Shown piece by piece: positions 13,867-22,768 of a stretch of DNA of 60,841 nucleotides (position 1 is its first letter; each line of letters opens with the position of its first letter). The stretch is from the NCBI GenBank assembly GCA_035533095.1, contig DATLUM010000103.1:1-60841 (forward strand), written 5' to 3'. A program made the position numbers and the translations under genes. This DNA is from Acidimicrobiales bacterium. Its GTDB lineage: Bacteria > Actinomycetota > Acidimicrobiia > Acidimicrobiales > Palsa-688. Below the pieces are notes generated by a model, which saw only the letters and a list, made by a program, of their open reading frames with translations, made no database searches and was not told where the DNA came from.

Positions 13867-15360
13867 TTGGACGACTTCGAGTTGTTCGCTCAGGCCGTGG
13901 TCGAACACGGCGAGGTGGCGGTTCTCCTTGTGGCCGACGACCTGCAGGTCCGATGGGCTACTCCGGCAGCACGCCAGCTGTTCGACGGCGCCCACGGCGC
14001 CTTGCCCGACCTGATCGATATTGCCGACGCCGCGGCGGCGGCGTCTTTTCTCGACCGAGTGGGCAACTCCGGCGGCTCGCCGGTTCGTTTCGTGTGCTCC
14101 GTGCCGGTTGACGGCTCCGCGCCGCGCCGTGTCGAGATGGTGGGCCATGACAAGAGGGACATTCCGGAGCTGGACGGCTACGTGGTGGTCGTCCACGACG
14201 TGACGACGTGGGCCGAGCGCGAAAGCCAATCCCAGAACCTGCTCTATTCGGACGGGTTGACCGGGCTGAGCAATCGGTTCAGCCTCCTCGAACGGCTCGC
14301 GCAAGCGGTGGGATCAGCTTCCCTGGACGGCCCGAGACCAGCGGTGCTCTCGCTAGACCTCGACGCGTTCAAGCGGGTCAACGACGGTCACGGGCATCAC
14401 GCCGGCGACACGGTCCTGCGTTTGGTAGCGACGAGGATGGCAGGGGTGGTGGGCGGGGCGGGGACGTCGTTTCGGGTCGGGGGAGACGAGTTCGCTGTCC
14501 TGCTCGACCGGACCTCCGCTGACGAGGCGTCGAGGATCGCGGAGAGGATCCTGGAGTCGGTTAGCGAGCCGATCCACCTCGGCATGTCCCAGGTGCAGAT
14601 ATCCGCATCTATCGGTGTCGCGGTCCTGCGCGACCGCCGGCGGCCTGAGGGCGTCCTCCGCGACGGCGACGCGGCCATGTACCGAGCGAAAGCATCGGGA
14701 GGCGGCCGGGTGGTGCTCTACTGCGAGGAGTTCGACGACTGGGCACTCGTCCGTAAACGCGAGGCGGACGTCCTGGCGATGCGGTTGGGAGTCCTCAGGC
14801 AGGAGAACGAGGCGCTCGCCGAGGCCGCCACGGTCGACGCCCGAACCGGCCTTCCGAACTGCGCCGCCTTCGAGGACGATCACGCCTCACTTCACGCCCG
14901 GTTCGTCGAGATGGGGGAGCCGTACGCGCTCATGCTGATCGACATCGACCGGTTCCACGGCTACAACAGCCGCTACTTGTATCTCGCGGGCAATCGGGCG
15001 ATCCGCGCCGTTGCCGACACCATATCCGCGACCATCCGGCAGGAAGACCGCGCCTACCGGTACGGAGGCGAGGAGTTCACCGTTCTGCTTCCGGGAGCGA
15101 GTGCGGAGGAGGGGACGTCAGTTGCCGAGCGCATCCGTGTGAAGGTGCAGGGCCTTCGCATCGAGCACCTCAACAACCGCCCCGGAGTCGTGACGATCAC
15201 GGCCGGTGTCATCGGATCCGACGCGCGCTACACGACCGCCGACGCGGCGTTCGAGGCCGCGAACCACCTGCTGCTGCGCGGCAAGGAGGCGGGCAGGAAC
15301 CAGGTGGTCGGACCGAGCCGGTTCAGGTCGTCAGCCGCTCGCGGTCCCGTCAGGCGGTGA
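13867..15360 (+). CDS. Tandem-GGDEF protein with PAS-like sensor (putative cyclic-dinucleotide synthase)
   Basis: A TTG start with a strong ribosome site (GGAGGGGAG) gives 497 aa. Residues 1-120 look like a PAS-type sensor. The first GGDEF domain (~125-285) is canonical: DLDAFKRVNDGHGHHAGD then RVGGDEF (motif 205-209). The second (~320-475) keeps the motif (GGEEF, 400-404), and RQED at 391-394 fits an inhibitory I-site. Its nucleotide-binding segment, however, reads DIDRFHGYNSRYLYLAGN, with Asn where the usual GD aspartate contacts guanine. No membrane helix, so cytosolic. One or both domains may make cyclic di-GMP; the second may bind a different nucleotide or act as a regulator. It overlaps the convergent oxidase gene by 30 bp. 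Confidence 0.87.
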   Translation: MDDFELFAQAVVEHGEVAVLLVADDLQVRWATPAARQLFDGAHGALPDLIDIADAAAAASFLDRVGNSGGSPVRFVCSVPVDGSAPRRVEMVGHDKRDIPELDGYVVVVHDVTTWAERESQSQNLLYSDGLTGLSNRFSLLERLAQAVGSASLDGPRPAVLSLDLDAFKRVNDGHGHHAGDTVLRLVATRMAGVVGGAGTSFRVGGDEFAVLLDRTSADEASRIAERILESVSEPIHLGMSQVQISASIGVAVLRDRRRPEGVLRDGDAAMYRAKASGGGRVVLYCEEFDDWALVRKREADVLAMRLGVLRQENEALAEAATVDARTGLPNCAAFEDDHASLHARFVEMGEPYALMLIDIDRFHGYNSRYLYLAGNRAIRAVADTISATIRQEDRAYRYGGEEFTVLLPGASAEEGTSVAERIRVKVQGLRIEHLNNRPGVVTITAGVIGSDARYTTADAAFEAANHLLLRGKEAGRNQVVGPSRFRSSAARGPVRR

Positions 15361-16666: not shown

Positions 16667-17428
16667 CTAGCCGTCGGCAGGAACCCATGACGGCGAGCGC
16701 TTCTCGCGGAACGCGGCCATTCCTTCGGCCGCCTCGGCCGAGGCGAACAGGTCACGCGAGATGGCGGCCGTCATCTCGAACGCCTCCGCTCGACCACGGC
16801 CTGGAACTTCGAAGACCAACCGCTTGGCAGCCGCGAGAGCGCCAGGTCCGCCGGCGAGCAGCTTGGACACGAGGGTGTCCGTCGCCGCGTCCAAACCCTC
16901 GCTGCCGGCGACGTCGGTGATCAGCCCGGCGTCCGCCGCTCGCGCGGCGCTGATCCTCTCTCCGGTCAGGAACAACTCGAGGGCGTCTCCTCGACGCATC
17001 TTCGGCAGGCAGACGACGGAGATGATCGCGGGCGCAGCCCCTATGCGGACCTCGGTGAATCCGAACTTCACGTCGGGCGCGGCTATCGACAGGTCGCAAG
17101 CCGCTGCGAGGCCGACCCCACCGCCCATGCAGTGGCCGGCGATGCGGGCCACGACCGGCTTCGGAGAGTCCTGGATAGCGGTGAGTATCGACGGCAGGTC
17201 GTGACGTGCTGGGGCGAGGCCGCCGCCCTTGAGATCAGCCCCCGCACAGAACGCCGGGCCCGTGTTGGTGAGCACCACGACCCGGACGGAACTGTCGCGC
17301 ACGGCCGCATCGAGCCCGTCTCCGAGACCGTCGAGGAGGGCGGGGGTGAGGGCGTTGCGGTTGTCGGGTTGGGCGAGGGTGAGCCTGGCCACGCCGGCGG
17401 CGATGTCGTAGAGGACGGCGTCGCTCAC
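16667..17428 (-). CDS. Enoyl-CoA hydratase/isomerase (crotonase), AtuE/LiuC-like
   Basis: 253 aa from a GTG overlapping the AtuA stop by 4 bp. Crotonase signatures: GPAFCAGADLKGGG (oxyanion hole) and HCMGGGVGLAAACDLSIA. FGFTEVRIGAAPA carries the second catalytic Glu, while the first Glu position is Gly. That pattern fits hydratases of methylglutaconyl-CoA or isohexenylglutaconyl-CoA rather than standard beta-oxidation. It comes last of the acyl-CoA genes, matching the step after carboxylation. Family is sure; substrate is inference from context. Confidence 0.87.
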   Translation of the reverse strand: MSDAVLYDIAAGVARLTLAQPDNRNALTPALLDGLGDGLDAAVRDSSVRVVVLTNTGPAFCAGADLKGGGLAPARHDLPSILTAIQDSPKPVVARIAGHCMGGGVGLAAACDLSIAAPDVKFGFTEVRIGAAPAIISVVCLPKMRRGDALELFLTGERISAARAADAGLITDVAGSEGLDAATDTLVSKLLAGGPGALAAAKRLVFEVPGRGRAEAFEMTAAISRDLFASAEAAEGMAAFREKRSPSWVPADG

Positions 17429-19209
17429 CTGAGCAGCTCCTCGGGGATGTCGGCGTGGCGCGCCCGGAGCCACTCGCCGAGGCTCTTGGCCTGGGCGTCG
17501 AGACGGGTGCTGGACGCGACTCCTTCGCCGAGGATTCCGTGGACGACGAAGTTGATCGCCAGGATGTTGGGAAGCGGGTGGCGATCCACTGTCAGCGGCG
17601 CCGTCTCAGGCAGGAGCTCCTTCAGCCGTTCGGTGGTGAGGAACCCGTCGAGCCATTCGTAAGCGGCTTCCGAGCGGGCCCACACACCGAGGTTGGCGTT
17701 TCCACCCTTGTCACCCGATCGCGCGCCGACGACGCGCCCGAGCGGCACCCGCCGCCTGGCCGAGGCCGGCGGGTGGTCGGCGGAGACCGCCGGTGTCAAG
17801 CCGGCGGGGGGGTCCCCGGCCGGACAGGAACCGCCGGCCGGACCCGGCGCGGCGGGCGGCAGAACGGGCTCGACGAGCGTACGCTCGCCGGCGATCACCA
17901 CCTCTTGCCAGACGAGATCGGCGGGAACGAGCGCCGGCCAGTACACCCCGTACGCCTGCGCGCCGGCGGTCAGCCCGCCTCCGAACAGGCCGGGGTAAGA
18001 CGCGAGCGCCAACTCGGTGATCTTCGACGAGAAGGCGCGGCCGACCTTGCGTTCGTCGCTGTCCTTGACGGTTATGCGCAGTTGCGCAACGGCCTCCTCG
18101 TTGGTGGCCGGGTCGTCCTTGTCCGTGCGGAGCAGTTGGACGTCGACACCGGCGAACGAACCCTTCGACACCTCGGACCAGAGGGCCCTCTCCACGAGAG
18201 CGGCCTTTTCCTCGATGTCAAGGCCCGTCAGGTACAAGACGGTGGTCGACCTCCAGCCGCCCTGGTAGTTGAGCGCCACCTTCGCCGTCGCCGGCGGCGG
18301 CTCGCCCTTCACCCCCGTGATCCGTACCCGGTCCGGTCCCTCCTGGTCCAGCTGAATCGTGTCGAAGCGGGCTGTGACGTCCGGGTTGGCGTAGTCCGGT
18401 CCGCCGATCTCGTAGAGCAGCTGCGCCGTCACCGTCCCGACCGACACCGTGCCGCCTTGGTCGGGGTGCTTGGTGATGACCGACGATCCGTCGGAGTGCA
18501 CCTCGGCGATCGGGAACCCTGGGTGCTCGAGGCCACGGATCTCCCCGAAGAAGGAGTAGTTGCCGCCCGTGGCCTGCGTGCCGCACTCGATGACGTGGCC
18601 GGCGACGACTGCGCCGGCGAGTGCGTCCCAGTCGTCGCGGGACCAACCGTGCCGCCATGCCCCCGGCCCGACGGTCAAGGCTGCGTCGGTGACCCGTCCG
18701 GTGACCACGATGTCGGCACCTCGAGCGAGTGCCTCTGCGATACCCCAGCCGCCGAGGTAGGCATTGGCTGTCATGACCTGCCGGTCCCCGAGCGGTTCCC
18801 CGGTATCCATGTTGGAAAAGACCACGCCCGCGGCCTTCAACTCCTCCATCCGGGGGACCAGGTCGTCGCCCTCCACGTAGGCGATGACCGGGTCGAGGCC
18901 GAGCTTCTCGGCGACTTCGGCTACCGCGCCGGCGCATCCACGCGGGGAGAGTCCGCCCGCATTGGACACGACCTTGATACCGCGATCCATGCAGCTGCCC
19001 ATCACCTGCTCCATCTGGGTGACGAACGTCCGCGCGTAGCCGGAGGCGGGATCGCGCAGCATGTTCTTGGCGAGGATGAGCATCGTCAACTCGGCGAGCC
19101 AGTCCCCTGTCAGCACGTCAATCGGGCCGCCGTCGACCATCTCCCGAGCGGCCGACAGGCGGTCGCCGTAGAACCCGCTGCAGTTGGCGATCCTGATCGG
19201 CTCGCTCAT
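17425..19209 (-). CDS. AtuA-family (DUF1446) acyclic terpene utilisation protein
   Basis: 594 aa from ATG 19209, overlapping the carboxylase stop. The N-terminal DUF1446 domain begins IRIANCSGFYGDRLSAAREM and includes VVSNAGGLSPRGCA, TANAYLGGWGIAEAL and VVTGRVTDAALTVGP. A proline/glycine linker near residue 460 leads to the C-terminal AtuA ferredoxin-like domain (LGRVVGARSGDKGGNANLGV). AtuA is needed for citronellol/geraniol breakdown in Pseudomonas but its reaction is unknown. Here it lies between an acyl-CoA carboxylase and a hydratase with overlaps at both ends. Long upstream frame beyond 19209 is antisense-like noise. Confidence 0.9.
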   Translation of the reverse strand: MSEPIRIANCSGFYGDRLSAAREMVDGGPIDVLTGDWLAELTMLILAKNMLRDPASGYARTFVTQMEQVMGSCMDRGIKVVSNAGGLSPRGCAGAVAEVAEKLGLDPVIAYVEGDDLVPRMEELKAAGVVFSNMDTGEPLGDRQVMTANAYLGGWGIAEALARGADIVVTGRVTDAALTVGPGAWRHGWSRDDWDALAGAVVAGHVIECGTQATGGNYSFFGEIRGLEHPGFPIAEVHSDGSSVITKHPDQGGTVSVGTVTAQLLYEIGGPDYANPDVTARFDTIQLDQEGPDRVRITGVKGEPPPATAKVALNYQGGWRSTTVLYLTGLDIEEKAALVERALWSEVSKGSFAGVDVQLLRTDKDDPATNEEAVAQLRITVKDSDERKVGRAFSSKITELALASYPGLFGGGLTAGAQAYGVYWPALVPADLVWQEVVIAGERTLVEPVLPPAAPGPAGGSCPAGDPPAGLTPAVSADHPPASARRRVPLGRVVGARSGDKGGNANLGVWARSEAAYEWLDGFLTTERLKELLPETAPLTVDRHPLPNILAINFVVHGILGEGVASSTRLDAQAKSLGEWLRARHADIPEELLR

Positions 19210-21128
19210 TCGATGACCGCCAGCAGGCTGCCGGCGTCGACCTGGTCGCCGGCACGGGCGTGGAGGTCGACGACCTTTCCGGCGCTCGGAGCCACGACGC
19301 GGTGCTCCATCTTCATTGCCTCCACGATCATCAGCAGGTCTCCCGTCTCCACGTCTTGGCCTTCTTCGACGGAGACGAAGACCACCTTGCCCGGCATGGG
19401 TGCGACGAGCCCGCCGGGCACGTCCGACTCCCTCGCGGCGTCCGGAAAACGAGGACGCTCCGTGAGCCGCGCGTCCCCATCGGGTCCCTGGACCCAGAAG
19501 CTCGCCCCGCGCCGGAAGACGTGGAGGTGGTGGCGGTCCCGGCTGTCCTCGAAGTCGACCCACCCGCTCTCGACTCCCCGAACGCGGACGACGCGATCTC
19601 CGAAATCCAGGGTCCCATCCGGCTCGGTGCGGTAGGTGACTTCGAGTTCCTCACCTGCGTGCTCGAAGACGCGGCGCTCCGGGGGCATCACCGAGTTGCG
19701 CCACCCCGGCTGGATGGATCGGAGCACCCGGCGCGCCTTAGTCGCTTCATCTCGATCGGCGAGGGCTGCCGCGATGGCGGCTGTGCGAAGTTCCTCCGGG
19801 CCGGGTGTCCGGACCGGCGCCACGCCGCTCTCGTCGATAAACGACGTGGTCGTGTCGCCTGCCAGGAAGCGCGTGTGGCGGAGCGTGGCGACCAGGAAGT
19901 CCCGGTTGGTCGTCAGTCCCCGGATACGGCTTCGCTCCAGCGCGAGAGCGAGTCTCCGGGCTGCCTCGTCGCGCGTCGGTGCGTGAGAGATCACCTTGGC
20001 CAGCATCGGGTCGAACTCGACCCCCACCTCGGAGCCGGTCTCGACGCCAGAGTCCCACCTGACCGCAGGATCGGCCGCCGGTGCCCAGTCGACCAGCGAG
20101 CCGGTCGCGGGCAGGAACCCGGCGGCAGGATCCTCCGCGTACAGGCGGGCCTCGATCGAGTACCCGTCGATCGAAAGATCGCCCTGGGTGACCGACAGGG
20201 GGAGCCCTTGAGCGACCAGTAGCTGCTCGCGCACCAGGTCCAGACCGGTCACTGCTTCGGTGACGGGGTGCTCGACCTGCAGCCGGGTGTTCACCTCGAG
20301 GAAGAAGAAATCGCCGCCGGGCTCCAGGACGAACTCCACCGTTCCGGCGTTGACGTACCCGACGGCTTTCGCCGCGGCGAGCGCCGCCTCGCCCATCCGA
20401 TCGCGCAGGGAATCGTCGACCGCAGGCGAGGGGGACTCCTCGATGACCTTCTGGTGCCGGCGCTGGATCGAGCACTCGCGCTCGAAGCAATGGATGGTAT
20501 TTCCGTGCGAGTCGGCGAGGATCTGGATCTCGACGTGGCGGGCTCGGGTCAGGTAGTGCTCGAGGAACACGGTGCCGTCGCCGAAGGCCGCCTCGGCTTC
20601 GCGCGCGGCCGCGGCGACGGCGTCCGCGAGCTCTGCACTGGAGGTCACGACCCGCATGCCCTTGCCGCCGCCGCCGGCGGCCGCCTTCACGAGAATCGGG
20701 AAGGCGATGTCGCCGTCGTCGGCCTCCCATGTCGGCAGAACGGGCACGCCGGCGCCGGCCATGAGCCGCTTCGCCGCGAGCTTGTCTCCCATCAGCTCGA
20801 TGACGTTCGGGGGTGGGCCCACCCACGTCAGGCCGGCATCCTGGACTGCCTGCGCGAACGCCGCCCGCTCCGAAAGGAAGCCGTAGCCCGGGTGAACAGC
20901 GTCGGCGCCGCTCGATGCCGCGGCTTCGAGCAGAGCCTCGATGTTGAGATAGGTGTCGGCGGCGGTCCTGCCCTTCAGCGGCACCGCCGCGCCAGCCTCG
21001 TTGACGAACGGGACCCCACCGTCCCCCTCCGCGTAGACGGCGACCGTCGTGATCCCCATGGAGTGTGCCGTCCGGGCCACACGGCGTGCTATCTCGCCCC
21101 GGTTCGCGATCAGCAGACGCGTGATCAC
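19206..21128 (-). CDS. Acyl-CoA carboxylase alpha subunit (biotin carboxylase + biotin carrier)
   Basis: 640 aa from a GTG at 21128 overlapping the beta-subunit stop. Domains: biotin carboxylase N-terminal (RLLIANRGEIARRVARTA), ATP-grasp (KAAAGGGGKGMRVV, ECSIQRRHQKVIEESPSPAV, NTRLQVEHPVTEAV) and C-terminal domain (YSIEARLYAEDP). A linker and a biotinyl domain follow, with the biotinylation lysine in VEAMKMEHRVV. It carboxylates biotin using bicarbonate and ATP, passing CO2 to the beta subunit. Architecture matches methylcrotonyl-CoA and geranyl-CoA carboxylase alpha chains. Confidence 0.95.
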   Translation of the reverse strand: MITRLLIANRGEIARRVARTAHSMGITTVAVYAEGDGGVPFVNEAGAAVPLKGRTAADTYLNIEALLEAAASSGADAVHPGYGFLSERAAFAQAVQDAGLTWVGPPPNVIELMGDKLAAKRLMAGAGVPVLPTWEADDGDIAFPILVKAAAGGGGKGMRVVTSSAELADAVAAAAREAEAAFGDGTVFLEHYLTRARHVEIQILADSHGNTIHCFERECSIQRRHQKVIEESPSPAVDDSLRDRMGEAALAAAKAVGYVNAGTVEFVLEPGGDFFFLEVNTRLQVEHPVTEAVTGLDLVREQLLVAQGLPLSVTQGDLSIDGYSIEARLYAEDPAAGFLPATGSLVDWAPAADPAVRWDSGVETGSEVGVEFDPMLAKVISHAPTRDEAARRLALALERSRIRGLTTNRDFLVATLRHTRFLAGDTTTSFIDESGVAPVRTPGPEELRTAAIAAALADRDEATKARRVLRSIQPGWRNSVMPPERRVFEHAGEELEVTYRTEPDGTLDFGDRVVRVRGVESGWVDFEDSRDRHHLHVFRRGASFWVQGPDGDARLTERPRFPDAARESDVPGGLVAPMPGKVVFVSVEEGQDVETGDLLMIVEAMKMEHRVVAPSAGKVVDLHARAGDQVDAGSLLAVIE

Positions 21129-22768
21129 AGGCGGAACACCCCAAACCCGGCTGCCCCTTCTACCGGAGCGCTGTGGCAAGCGGACAGGGCCATAGCGACG
21201 ACGGTGCGAGTGTCGCGCGGATCGATGATCCCGTCGTCGGCGACCCGGCCGGTCGCGTAGAGGCCGAGAGACTGGGATTCGGCGAAGTCCTCTACCGCCT
21301 TGGTGATCGCCGCCTCCAGGTTCTCGTCGACGGGTTGGCCTCTCCTGGCCGCCTGCTCCCGCCGGACGATCGACATCACGCCGGCCATCTGCTTCGGGCC
21401 CATGATCGCGATCTTCGCCGTCGGCCAGAGGAACACGAAGCGGGTGTCGAAAGCCCGGCCCCCCATGCCGTAGTTGCCGGCTCCGTAGCTCGCTCCCATG
21501 ATCACGGTGATGTGCGGGACCGTGGAGTTGGACAGGGCGTTGATCATCTGGCTGCCGTGCTTGACGATCCCGCCGCGCTCGTAGTCCCGGCCCACTATGT
21601 AACCGGTGATGTGCTGCAGGAACAGCAGCGGTGTCGAGGTCTGATTGCACAGCTGGATGAACTGCGCGGCCTTTTGTGCAGAGTCGGAGAAGAGCACGCC
21701 GTTGTTGGCGAGGATCCCGACGGGGAAGCCGTGAACGTGCGCCCAGCCGGTGACCAGCGTGGGGCCGTAGCGAGGCTTGAACTCCTCGAAACGACTGCCG
21801 TCGACGACCCGTGCGATTATCTCCCTCGCATCGACCGGCGCTTTCAGATCCACCGGCATGAGGCCCAGCAGCTCATCAGCGTTGTACAGCGGCGGTTCGG
21901 GGTCGTCGGTCACCGGACCAGGCCCGAGCTTCCGCCAGTGGAGGTGCGCGACGACGTCGCGCGCCATGCGGATCGCTTCGAACTCGTCCTCTGCCAGGTA
22001 GTCGGCGAGGCCACTGGCGGACGCGTGCATCTCCGCGCCACCGAGCTCCTCGTCCCCGGCGTCTTCGCCCGTCGCGACCTTCACCAGTGGCGGCCCGCCG
22101 AGGAACACCTTGGCGCCGCCTCGCACGAAAATGTTGTAGTCCGAGAGCCCGGGCTGGTAGGCGCCGCCGGCGGTGGAGCTACCGAATACGACAGAGATGG
22201 TCGGGATGCCGCGGGCGGACAGCTCGGTTATGTCGTGAAACATCCGCCCGCTTTCCGCGAAGTGGGTGAGGTTGCGCCTCATCACCGCCTCGGGGTCCTC
22301 GCCCGAGGTCAGGCCGCGGAGGTCTCCGCCGGCGGATTCCACGAACTGTATGTACGGCATGTGGTTGAGCCGGGCGATCTCCAGGGCGCGCATCAGCTTC
22401 TGGATCGACACGGCGGTCATGGCCCCGCCGAGATCGGTGGGGTCGTTGGCGAGGATCACGCACTCGGTCCCTTCGACGACGCCGATGCCGAGCACCATGC
22501 CGCCGCCGACGTTGAAGTCGGTCATGTAGCCGGCGAGCGGGCTTATCTCCAGGAACGCGCTGTCGGGGTCCAGCAGGAGCGCCACCCTTTCGCGCGCGAG
22601 GAGCTTGCCCCGGCTGCGGTGCCGGTCTATCGCCCTGGGACCGCCGCCTTGTGATGCCTGCTGGAGGAGGCGGTCGATCTCGGCCAGCAGCTCGAGCATC
22701 CCGGACCGGTTGGACCGAAACGCAGGGTCGCGCGTGTCGACGACGGTGCGAAGCGGAGGGGCTGCCAT
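21125..22768 (-). CDS. Acyl-CoA carboxylase beta subunit (carboxyltransferase)
   Basis: 547 aa. N- and C-terminal crotonase-like carboxyltransferase domains with GMVLGIGVVEGTECVILAND, FVESAGGDLRGL, GSSTAGGAYQPGLSDYNIFV and the second-domain stretch HGSQMINALSNSTVPHITVI then GASYGAGNYGMGGRAFDTRF. Length and motifs fit the methylcrotonyl/geranyl-CoA carboxylase group better than propionyl-CoA carboxylase. The gene starts 3 bp after the TIGR03084 stop and overlaps the alpha subunit, so the two chains are made together. Confidence 0.93.
   Translation of the reverse strand: MAAPPLRTVVDTRDPAFRSNRSGMLELLAEIDRLLQQASQGGGPRAIDRHRSRGKLLARERVALLLDPDSAFLEISPLAGYMTDFNVGGGMVLGIGVVEGTECVILANDPTDLGGAMTAVSIQKLMRALEIARLNHMPYIQFVESAGGDLRGLTSGEDPEAVMRRNLTHFAESGRMFHDITELSARGIPTISVVFGSSTAGGAYQPGLSDYNIFVRGGAKVFLGGPPLVKVATGEDAGDEELGGAEMHASASGLADYLAEDEFEAIRMARDVVAHLHWRKLGPGPVTDDPEPPLYNADELLGLMPVDLKAPVDAREIIARVVDGSRFEEFKPRYGPTLVTGWAHVHGFPVGILANNGVLFSDSAQKAAQFIQLCNQTSTPLLFLQHITGYIVGRDYERGGIVKHGSQMINALSNSTVPHITVIMGASYGAGNYGMGGRAFDTRFVFLWPTAKIAIMGPKQMAGVMSIVRREQAARRGQPVDENLEAAITKAVEDFAESQSLGLYATGRVADDGIIDPRDTRTVVAMALSACHSAPVEGAAGFGVFRL

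Follow-up and report, generated by a model that had tools for sequence, protein, structure and literature searches.

The window analysed here, i.e., the whole stretch of 60,841 nucleotides of contig DATLUM010000103.1 from an Acidimicrobiales bacterium, contains at 13867–15360 on the + strand an open reading frame of 497 amino acids, which was confirmed and which starts with a TTG codon; inspection by eye found GGAGGGGAG directly upstream of this start. The encoded protein comprises, in this order, a PAS-like region, a first GGDEF domain (D1), a linker and a second GGDEF domain (D2). The presence of two GGDEF domains with both GG[DE]EF motifs intact, claimed earlier from the letters alone, was confirmed from the sequence and by Pfam, in which the protein as a whole scored E = 5.5e-70 against the GGDEF family (PF00990), over two stretches. 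This architecture is directly evident from the sequence, as are the residue changes and their conservation described below. The features of the gene are:

13867–14220, + strand: PAS-like N-terminal sensor region, residues 1 to ~118 (PAS_4 matches of homologues, low-confidence model)
14248–14715, + strand: D1, residues 128–283 (Pfam PF00990, residue table)
14479–14493, + strand: GGDEF motif of D1 (sequence)
14716–14835, + strand: linker between D1 and D2, its second part helical (helix 2–29 of the modelled fragment starting at 14740)
14836–15309, + strand: D2, residues 324–481, non-canonical (alignments A1, A2 and A5, model, Foldseek)
15037–15048, + strand: primary I-site of D2, RQED (alignment A1, which excludes L027 and L009, shows no variation at R391, D394 and R422 across its 15 rows)
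15064–15078, + strand: GGEEF motif of D2 (sequence)

The window protein itself gave no Pfam match for a PAS domain. PAS_4 matched the N-terminal region of four homologues, over the cut-off in L018 (E = 1.6e-7) and below it in L019, L020 and L064, and the strand/helix order of a PAS-like region is seen in the low-confidence full-length model. On one side, the gene is flanked by genes for AIM24, gluconate dehydrogenase subunit 3 and a GMC oxidoreductase, on the other side by those for a lactone oxidase, located on the opposite strand and overlapping the tandem gene tail-to-tail by 30 bases (15331–15360), and an enoyl-CoA hydratase. When nine other proteins of the window were sought by tblastn in the surroundings (5.5 to 11.5 kb) of seven homologues, none was found. 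Further along the window (17425–21650, - strand), an AtuA-family gene adjoins a biotin carboxylase gene (MCC-alpha BT domain), a pair which suggests breakdown of acyclic terpenes or leucine.

The sequence-only reading had singled out the change of a guanine-contact Asp to Asn in D2. The string given for this region, YNSRYLYLAGN, is correct letter for letter and ends in N376 (14992–14994, AAT), which is aligned to D344 of PleD. PleD numbering is used in the following (the offset of window residues from PleD is + 32 as far as R390, and + 31 at the C-terminal lysine; DgcR number + 153 gives the PleD number, by which D435 and Y439 were obtained). The Asn at position 344 is, however, only a part of the change in D2. 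Overlooked were the changes of NR to NC, FK to FH, ND to NS, GH to LY, D435 to N, Y439 to L and DxLT to DxRT, and likewise the lack of an RxxD I-site in D1. The replaced positions of D2, followed by retained phosphate ligands, are given below with their occurrence in nine GGEEF-bearing D2s and, where stated, in 142 other tabulated GGDEF domains, a comparison set that was gathered by similarity and is not random:

14842–14844, + strand: R326 for the Leu of the DxLT turn (PleD L294); Arg in 9/9 D2s and 0/142 others
14860–14862, + strand: C332 for the cross-dimer Arg (PleD R300); Arg in 0/9 D2s
14956–14958, + strand: H364 for PleD K332; His in 9/9 D2s and 0/142 others
14968–14970, + strand: S368 for PleD D336, a dimer contact; Asp in 0/9 D2s
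14980–14982, + strand: Y372 for PleD H340, a dimer contact; Tyr in 8/9 D2s and 0/142 others
14992–14994, + strand: N376 for the guanine-binding Asp (PleD D344); Asn in 7 and His in 2 of 9 D2s
15262–15264, + strand: N466 for PleD D435, a dimer contact; Asn in 7/9 D2s
15274–15276, + strand: L470 for PleD Y439, a dimer contact; Leu in 7/9 D2s, Tyr in 0/9
15283–15297, + strand: K473 to R477, gamma-phosphate ligands (PleD K442, R446), kept; Lys and Arg invariant in the 9 rows of alignment A5

Homologues were sought in the own genome, in a set of 61 genomes, of which 31, not counting the own one, belong to the same family, in the family (32 genomes) and, more widely, in 397 genomes of the order, 395 of the class and 396 of the phylum. 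The nine GGEEF-bearing D2s come from seven genomes, one of which belongs to another class. Seven of them are the second domains of own-family tandem proteins, namely the window protein, those of G018, G017 and G026 (L022, which ends at a contig edge) and three copies in G003; the latter genome carries three paralogous PAS-GGDEF-GGDEF genes, on C14, C15 and C23. The eighth, L066 (G027, own family), occurs without a D1, and the ninth, L129 (G746), is part of a tandem protein from the other class. In L066 / L167 (G027:C178), the conserved D2 closely follows a co-directional Fic/DOC gene. Among the matches listed in the order search (E ≤ 1e-36), all that covered both domains were from the own family, and no second example was found in 66 genomes of the class of G746 (E up to 1e-43). 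A search of the phylum with a D2 profile returned the window and G746 as the two best matches; at the 18 places fetched from the 26 others listed, Asp344 is present and the pocket and cross-dimer sets are complete. A search of genome contigs led to 17 distant loci, and of the GGDEF domains read there none was D2-like. A plasmid search with linker and D2 yielded 2139 records, all below 60% identity, the best 30 of which mostly carry a GGDEF or cyclase annotation.

At position 344, Asp is absent from all nine GGEEF-bearing D2s, while the 142 similarity-gathered and thus non-random comparison domains have Asp in 139 and Asn in three cases. The alignment of homologues that had been proposed as a check on the Asn shows this position to be restricted in D2s keeping GGEEF (seven Asn, two His), and free variation is ruled out for this set. 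The three comparison domains with Asn344 belong to GGDEF-EAL proteins, two in the own genome (L006, C131:7997-8686, + strand; L010, C37:38448-38951, - strand) and one in G036 (L041). They combine GH..GN with a GGDEF motif and are canonical at every scored pocket and cross-dimer position, and going by their sequences they make clearer candidates than the window protein for a changed base contact. At the position of the cross-dimer Arg, a His is found in the same-phylum GGEEF domains L136, L137, L144, L148, L149, L157 and L160, six of which are grouped with L146 (Ser) with support in the tree, L136 standing apart.

The DgcR study distinguishes residues that bind nucleotide and metal within one subunit (D174, N182, D191, E217, E218, K289, and R293) from residues projecting to the other subunit (R147, K179, D183, H187, D282, and Y286), the latter based on a model (PMC8041772). 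In the same study, PleD K332 is proposed to act on the alpha-phosphate of the opposing substrate (PMC8041772). Scoring of the in-subunit (pocket) set, defined as seven columns excluding the base Asp, gave 7/7 in all nine GGEEF-bearing D2s, whereas R300, K332, D336, H340, and Y439 of the cross-dimer set are kept in none of them and D435 in one. Of the D1s of the eight conserved tandems, all eight have the full pocket, Asp344, R300, K332, D336, H340, and Y439, and six have D435. D1 of the window is canonical in NR..ND..GH..GD, with 7/7 pocket residues, Asp344 and the cross-dimer string RKDHDY. D2 of the window, with Asn at 344 and the cross-dimer string CHSYNL, deviates from the sequence of an active diguanylate cyclase. 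In a non-random background set, compiled from similarity searches to the window protein or by best PF00990 score (in two of the searches, including that of the order, three candidates were scored per genome), 124 of 126 domains have the full pocket, and of these 124, 121 carry Asp344 and three Asn; the cross-dimer set is complete in 106, 5/6 in 17 and 3/6 in one.

It could be argued that D2 goes on working as a normal diguanylate cyclase despite N376 and the other substitutions, considering that GGEEF, N335, K442, and R446 are intact and that D344N occurs in the three domains from GGDEF-EAL proteins mentioned above, which are canonical otherwise. However, six cross-dimer residues are changed together in D2, and at least five of the six are kept in 123 of the 124 other full-pocket domains of the non-random set, and we regard this explanation as quite improbable. 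More generally, the absence of the residues acting across the catalytic dimer makes homodimeric synthesis by D2 from any base less likely.

The earlier reading had compared the Asn with the change underlying the Hypr enzymes. According to the work on these enzymes, Ser/Thr at position 344 occurs only together with GGDE[F/Y], a Ser/GGEEF mutant was inactive, and the cross-dimer Arg is a second specificity determinant that is often lost in Hypr (PMC6456294). D2 and the Hypr enzymes GacA and GSU1658 resemble each other in that Asp344 is replaced and the cross-dimer Arg, whose replacement is a usual but not a strict Hypr trait, is lost (Cys in the window, Arg in 0/9 D2s). In contrast to Hypr, where Ser/Thr is combined with GGDEF, D2 combines Asn or His with GGEEF, is the second domain of a tandem and has further cross-dimer residues gone. 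Since Ser/Thr goes only with GGDE[F/Y], the parallel is not accepted, and membership of D2 in Hypr was rejected on position 344 and GGEEF in nine of nine D2s, D2 and Hypr being set apart here by published motif rules. The loss of the cross-dimer Arg keeps a changed base conceivable, but the rest of the cross-dimer set is lost as well. A Hypr-like or base-switched D2, the homodimer of which takes ATP (or ATP and GTP) and yields cGAMP or c-di-AMP, might find further backing in the fact that both published specificity positions are changed in 9/9 D2s with a complete pocket; furthermore, Asn is similar to Asp in length and would presumably suit GGEEF under the Goldilocks distance rule. Nevertheless, apart from the Hypr motif rule (PMC6456294), from which D2 deviates, K332, D336, H340, and Y439, which the DgcR model ties to the productive dimer, are absent in 9/9 D2s, and no Rfam family was matched at gathering score within the window. 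We therefore judge such a base switch to be unlikely.

A structure model of both domains, likewise proposed as a check, was only partly obtained. The model of D2, built with 13 sequences, was good (mean pLDDT 90.9) and has the ordinary GGDEF fold plus a helix at its N-terminus; among solved structures, Foldseek matched it best to DgcB, SiaD, 3ign, PleD, and DgcR, and a comparison with 3ign (VIA) gave Z 26.3 and an rmsd of 1.9 over 166 residues. The full-length model was poor (pLDDT 68.7, pTM 0.45), so no claim is made on the placement of D1 and D2 relative to each other. It might be imagined that D1 and D2 of one chain form an asymmetric catalytic dimer in which GTP on D1 is joined to another nucleotide on D2, given that D1 has all residues reaching the substrate of the partner and that D2 offers a pocket with a non-acidic base contact. 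This arrangement appears very improbable, as no sign of D1-D2 pairing was seen, the modelled helix preceding D2 seems to resemble an ordinary dimer stalk and one D2 exists without D1.

In addition to the conserved D2s, nine D2s with a degenerate motif were found (L021, L023 to L029, and L009), which have mostly lost the in-subunit set, L021 keeping part of it. R359, D362, and R390 of the I-site are kept in all nine and all four I-site residues including R313 in two. Among the D1s of the eight tandems with a degenerate D2, R300 is kept in one, K332 in one, D336 in two and H340 in none; three have lost the GGDEF motif and five keep it along with Asp344 and the in-subunit set. These eroded domains suggest that some relatives have a D1 which is no cyclase, and the recurrence in them of a kept pocket with lost cross-dimer residues favors nucleotide binding without a productive dimer. 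L009 (C71:48733-49275, - strand), located in the own genome, is an open frame of 237 amino acids in which a helical stretch accompanies a degenerate D2; it has no D1, keeps the I-site and is possibly a stand-alone c-di-GMP receptor.

The degenerate D2s, in which most of the pocket is lost and the I-site persists, would fit the assumption that D2 is generally a decaying second copy with a functionless pocket, of which the I-site alone matters. Against this, the nine GGEEF-bearing D2s have complete pockets in two classes as well as new fixed residues, namely Arg at 294, His at 332 and Tyr at 340, positions 300 and 336 being variable. Furthermore, D2 is more conserved than D1, with a mean identity of 0.641 compared to 0.556 over 21 pairs that are not independent and of 0.538 compared to 0.489 over the 11 likewise non-independent between-genus pairs, D2 being higher in nine of the 11, which argues that D2 is not simply decaying. 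For these reasons, simple decay of D2 is considered improbable.

A tree was calculated from 156 of 160 domains, leaving out four short degenerate D2s, with the bootstrap not settled. In this tree, the D2s form one group (100/97) that includes L129 and L009 and within which the five degenerate D2s of the tree fall. The own-family D1s form a separate group (98/99) elsewhere, to which D1 of L129 does not belong. The group adjoining D2 (98/75, below the star of the tool) consists of ten domains with canonical pocket, base, and cross-dimer positions, and a receiver domain is present in 5/5 scanned proteins of this group. The position of D2 beside receiver-GGEEF proteins suggests that it probably descended from a receiver-GGEEF cyclase. 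D2 also resembles the receiver-GGEEF proteins PleD and DgcR in fold, Mg-nucleotide residues, and I-site; in contrast to its neighbouring group, it has neither Asp344 nor the six cross-dimer residues. Judging from these distributions, base contact and cross-dimer residues were probably changed early, with the pocket being kept in two classes and lost in one branch.

The earlier suggestion that the RQED I-site of D2 could give product feedback fits the distribution of the I-site residues. Of these, R359, D362, and R390 are complemented by R313 from the neighbour (PMC12943098), and all four are present in eight of nine GGEEF-bearing D2s including that of the window, as opposed to one of eight D1s (the Arg and Asp of RxxD are likewise kept in one of these eight), a pattern that would be consistent with feedback through D2. 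The odd one is L129 of the other class, with D2 lacking RxxD and D1 carrying all four residues. As it keeps the D2 pocket and similar changes without a D2 I-site, the I-site is not the sole conserved feature of D2.

Since D2 keeps the pocket and a product-sensing site while the residues working in the dimer are changed, it probably serves the protein as an internal sensor and brake. We give somewhat better than even chances to a PAS-GGDEF-GGDEF protein with divided labour, in which D1 would be the cyclase and D2 a regulatory domain sensing c-di-GMP and perhaps a nucleotide. According to this reading, D1 would act as a homodimeric diguanylate cyclase without a product-inhibition site of its own. 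D2, with its base contact and partner-substrate residues replaced, would hold Mg and triphosphate within one subunit and retain the four I-site residues. c-di-GMP produced by D1 would bind a pair of D2s at their I-sites and thereby cross-link them, and the cross-linked pair would act via the helical linker to stop synthesis by D1, with a nucleotide in the D2 pocket tuning the brake. Lacking the acidic group of Asp, an Asn or His at position 344 would not be expected to select guanine in the same way, so that this nucleotide might be ATP or unselected. The activity of D1, the binding of c-di-GMP by D2, the binding of a nucleotide and its base, and the coupling of D1 and D2 are what we infer from the residue patterns.

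Several observations speak against the brake, among them the D2 of L129, which keeps its pocket without an I-site, and the eroded D1s of the tandems with a degenerate D2. R294, H332, and Y340 are fixed, as a new catalytic face would show, and could mean that the dimer face is re-tooled rather than erased; moreover, the D2 of L066 stands without a D1. One might accordingly think of a separate GGDEF lineage with the signature DxRTGL, FHx[YF]N, L.G[NH], and GGEEF, whose nucleotide would not be GTP and which, either through a re-tooled dimer or by pairing with D1, would make a signal other than c-di-GMP with non-Hypr residues, but we see only a small chance of this.

Known non-synthesizing domains offer partial likenesses to the favored sensor-and-brake reading of D2. 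PopA and SgmT, which are I-site receptors, share with it the GGDEF fold, an intact I-site, and lost or doubtful catalysis, with the difference that their A-site is degenerate (GGGVF in SgmT; PMC3509222), whereas GGEEF and the residues that bind metal and phosphate are all present in D2. The A-site motif of the window D2 is intact; it is degenerate solely in the other nine D2s. FimX, CC_3396 (GTP), and YybT (ATPase) have GGDEF domains that do not synthesize, engage a nucleotide and adjoin an output domain (PMC8846402, PMC12943098), as is proposed for D2. Their neighbour is an EAL or DHH-DHHA1 domain, whereas that of D2 is a GGDEF domain and its GGEEF is intact. In searches of the open-access literature, no paper was found on a two-GGDEF protein of such kind; "tandem GGDEF" denotes GGDEF-EAL there (papers including PMC9587094, PMC8846402, and PMC12943098).

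The second domain described here amounts to a natural experiment, in which the in-subunit residues are kept and the cross-dimer residues exchanged beside a canonical domain in the same chain. The roles proposed for the cross-dimer residues, which are partly model-based in the DgcR and GacA papers, thereby become directly testable. It also implies that a lone change of the guanine contact should not lead to a Hypr call without a check of the cross-dimer set and of the D/E of the motif. The findings also point to a cyclase whose product brake may be a separate domain.
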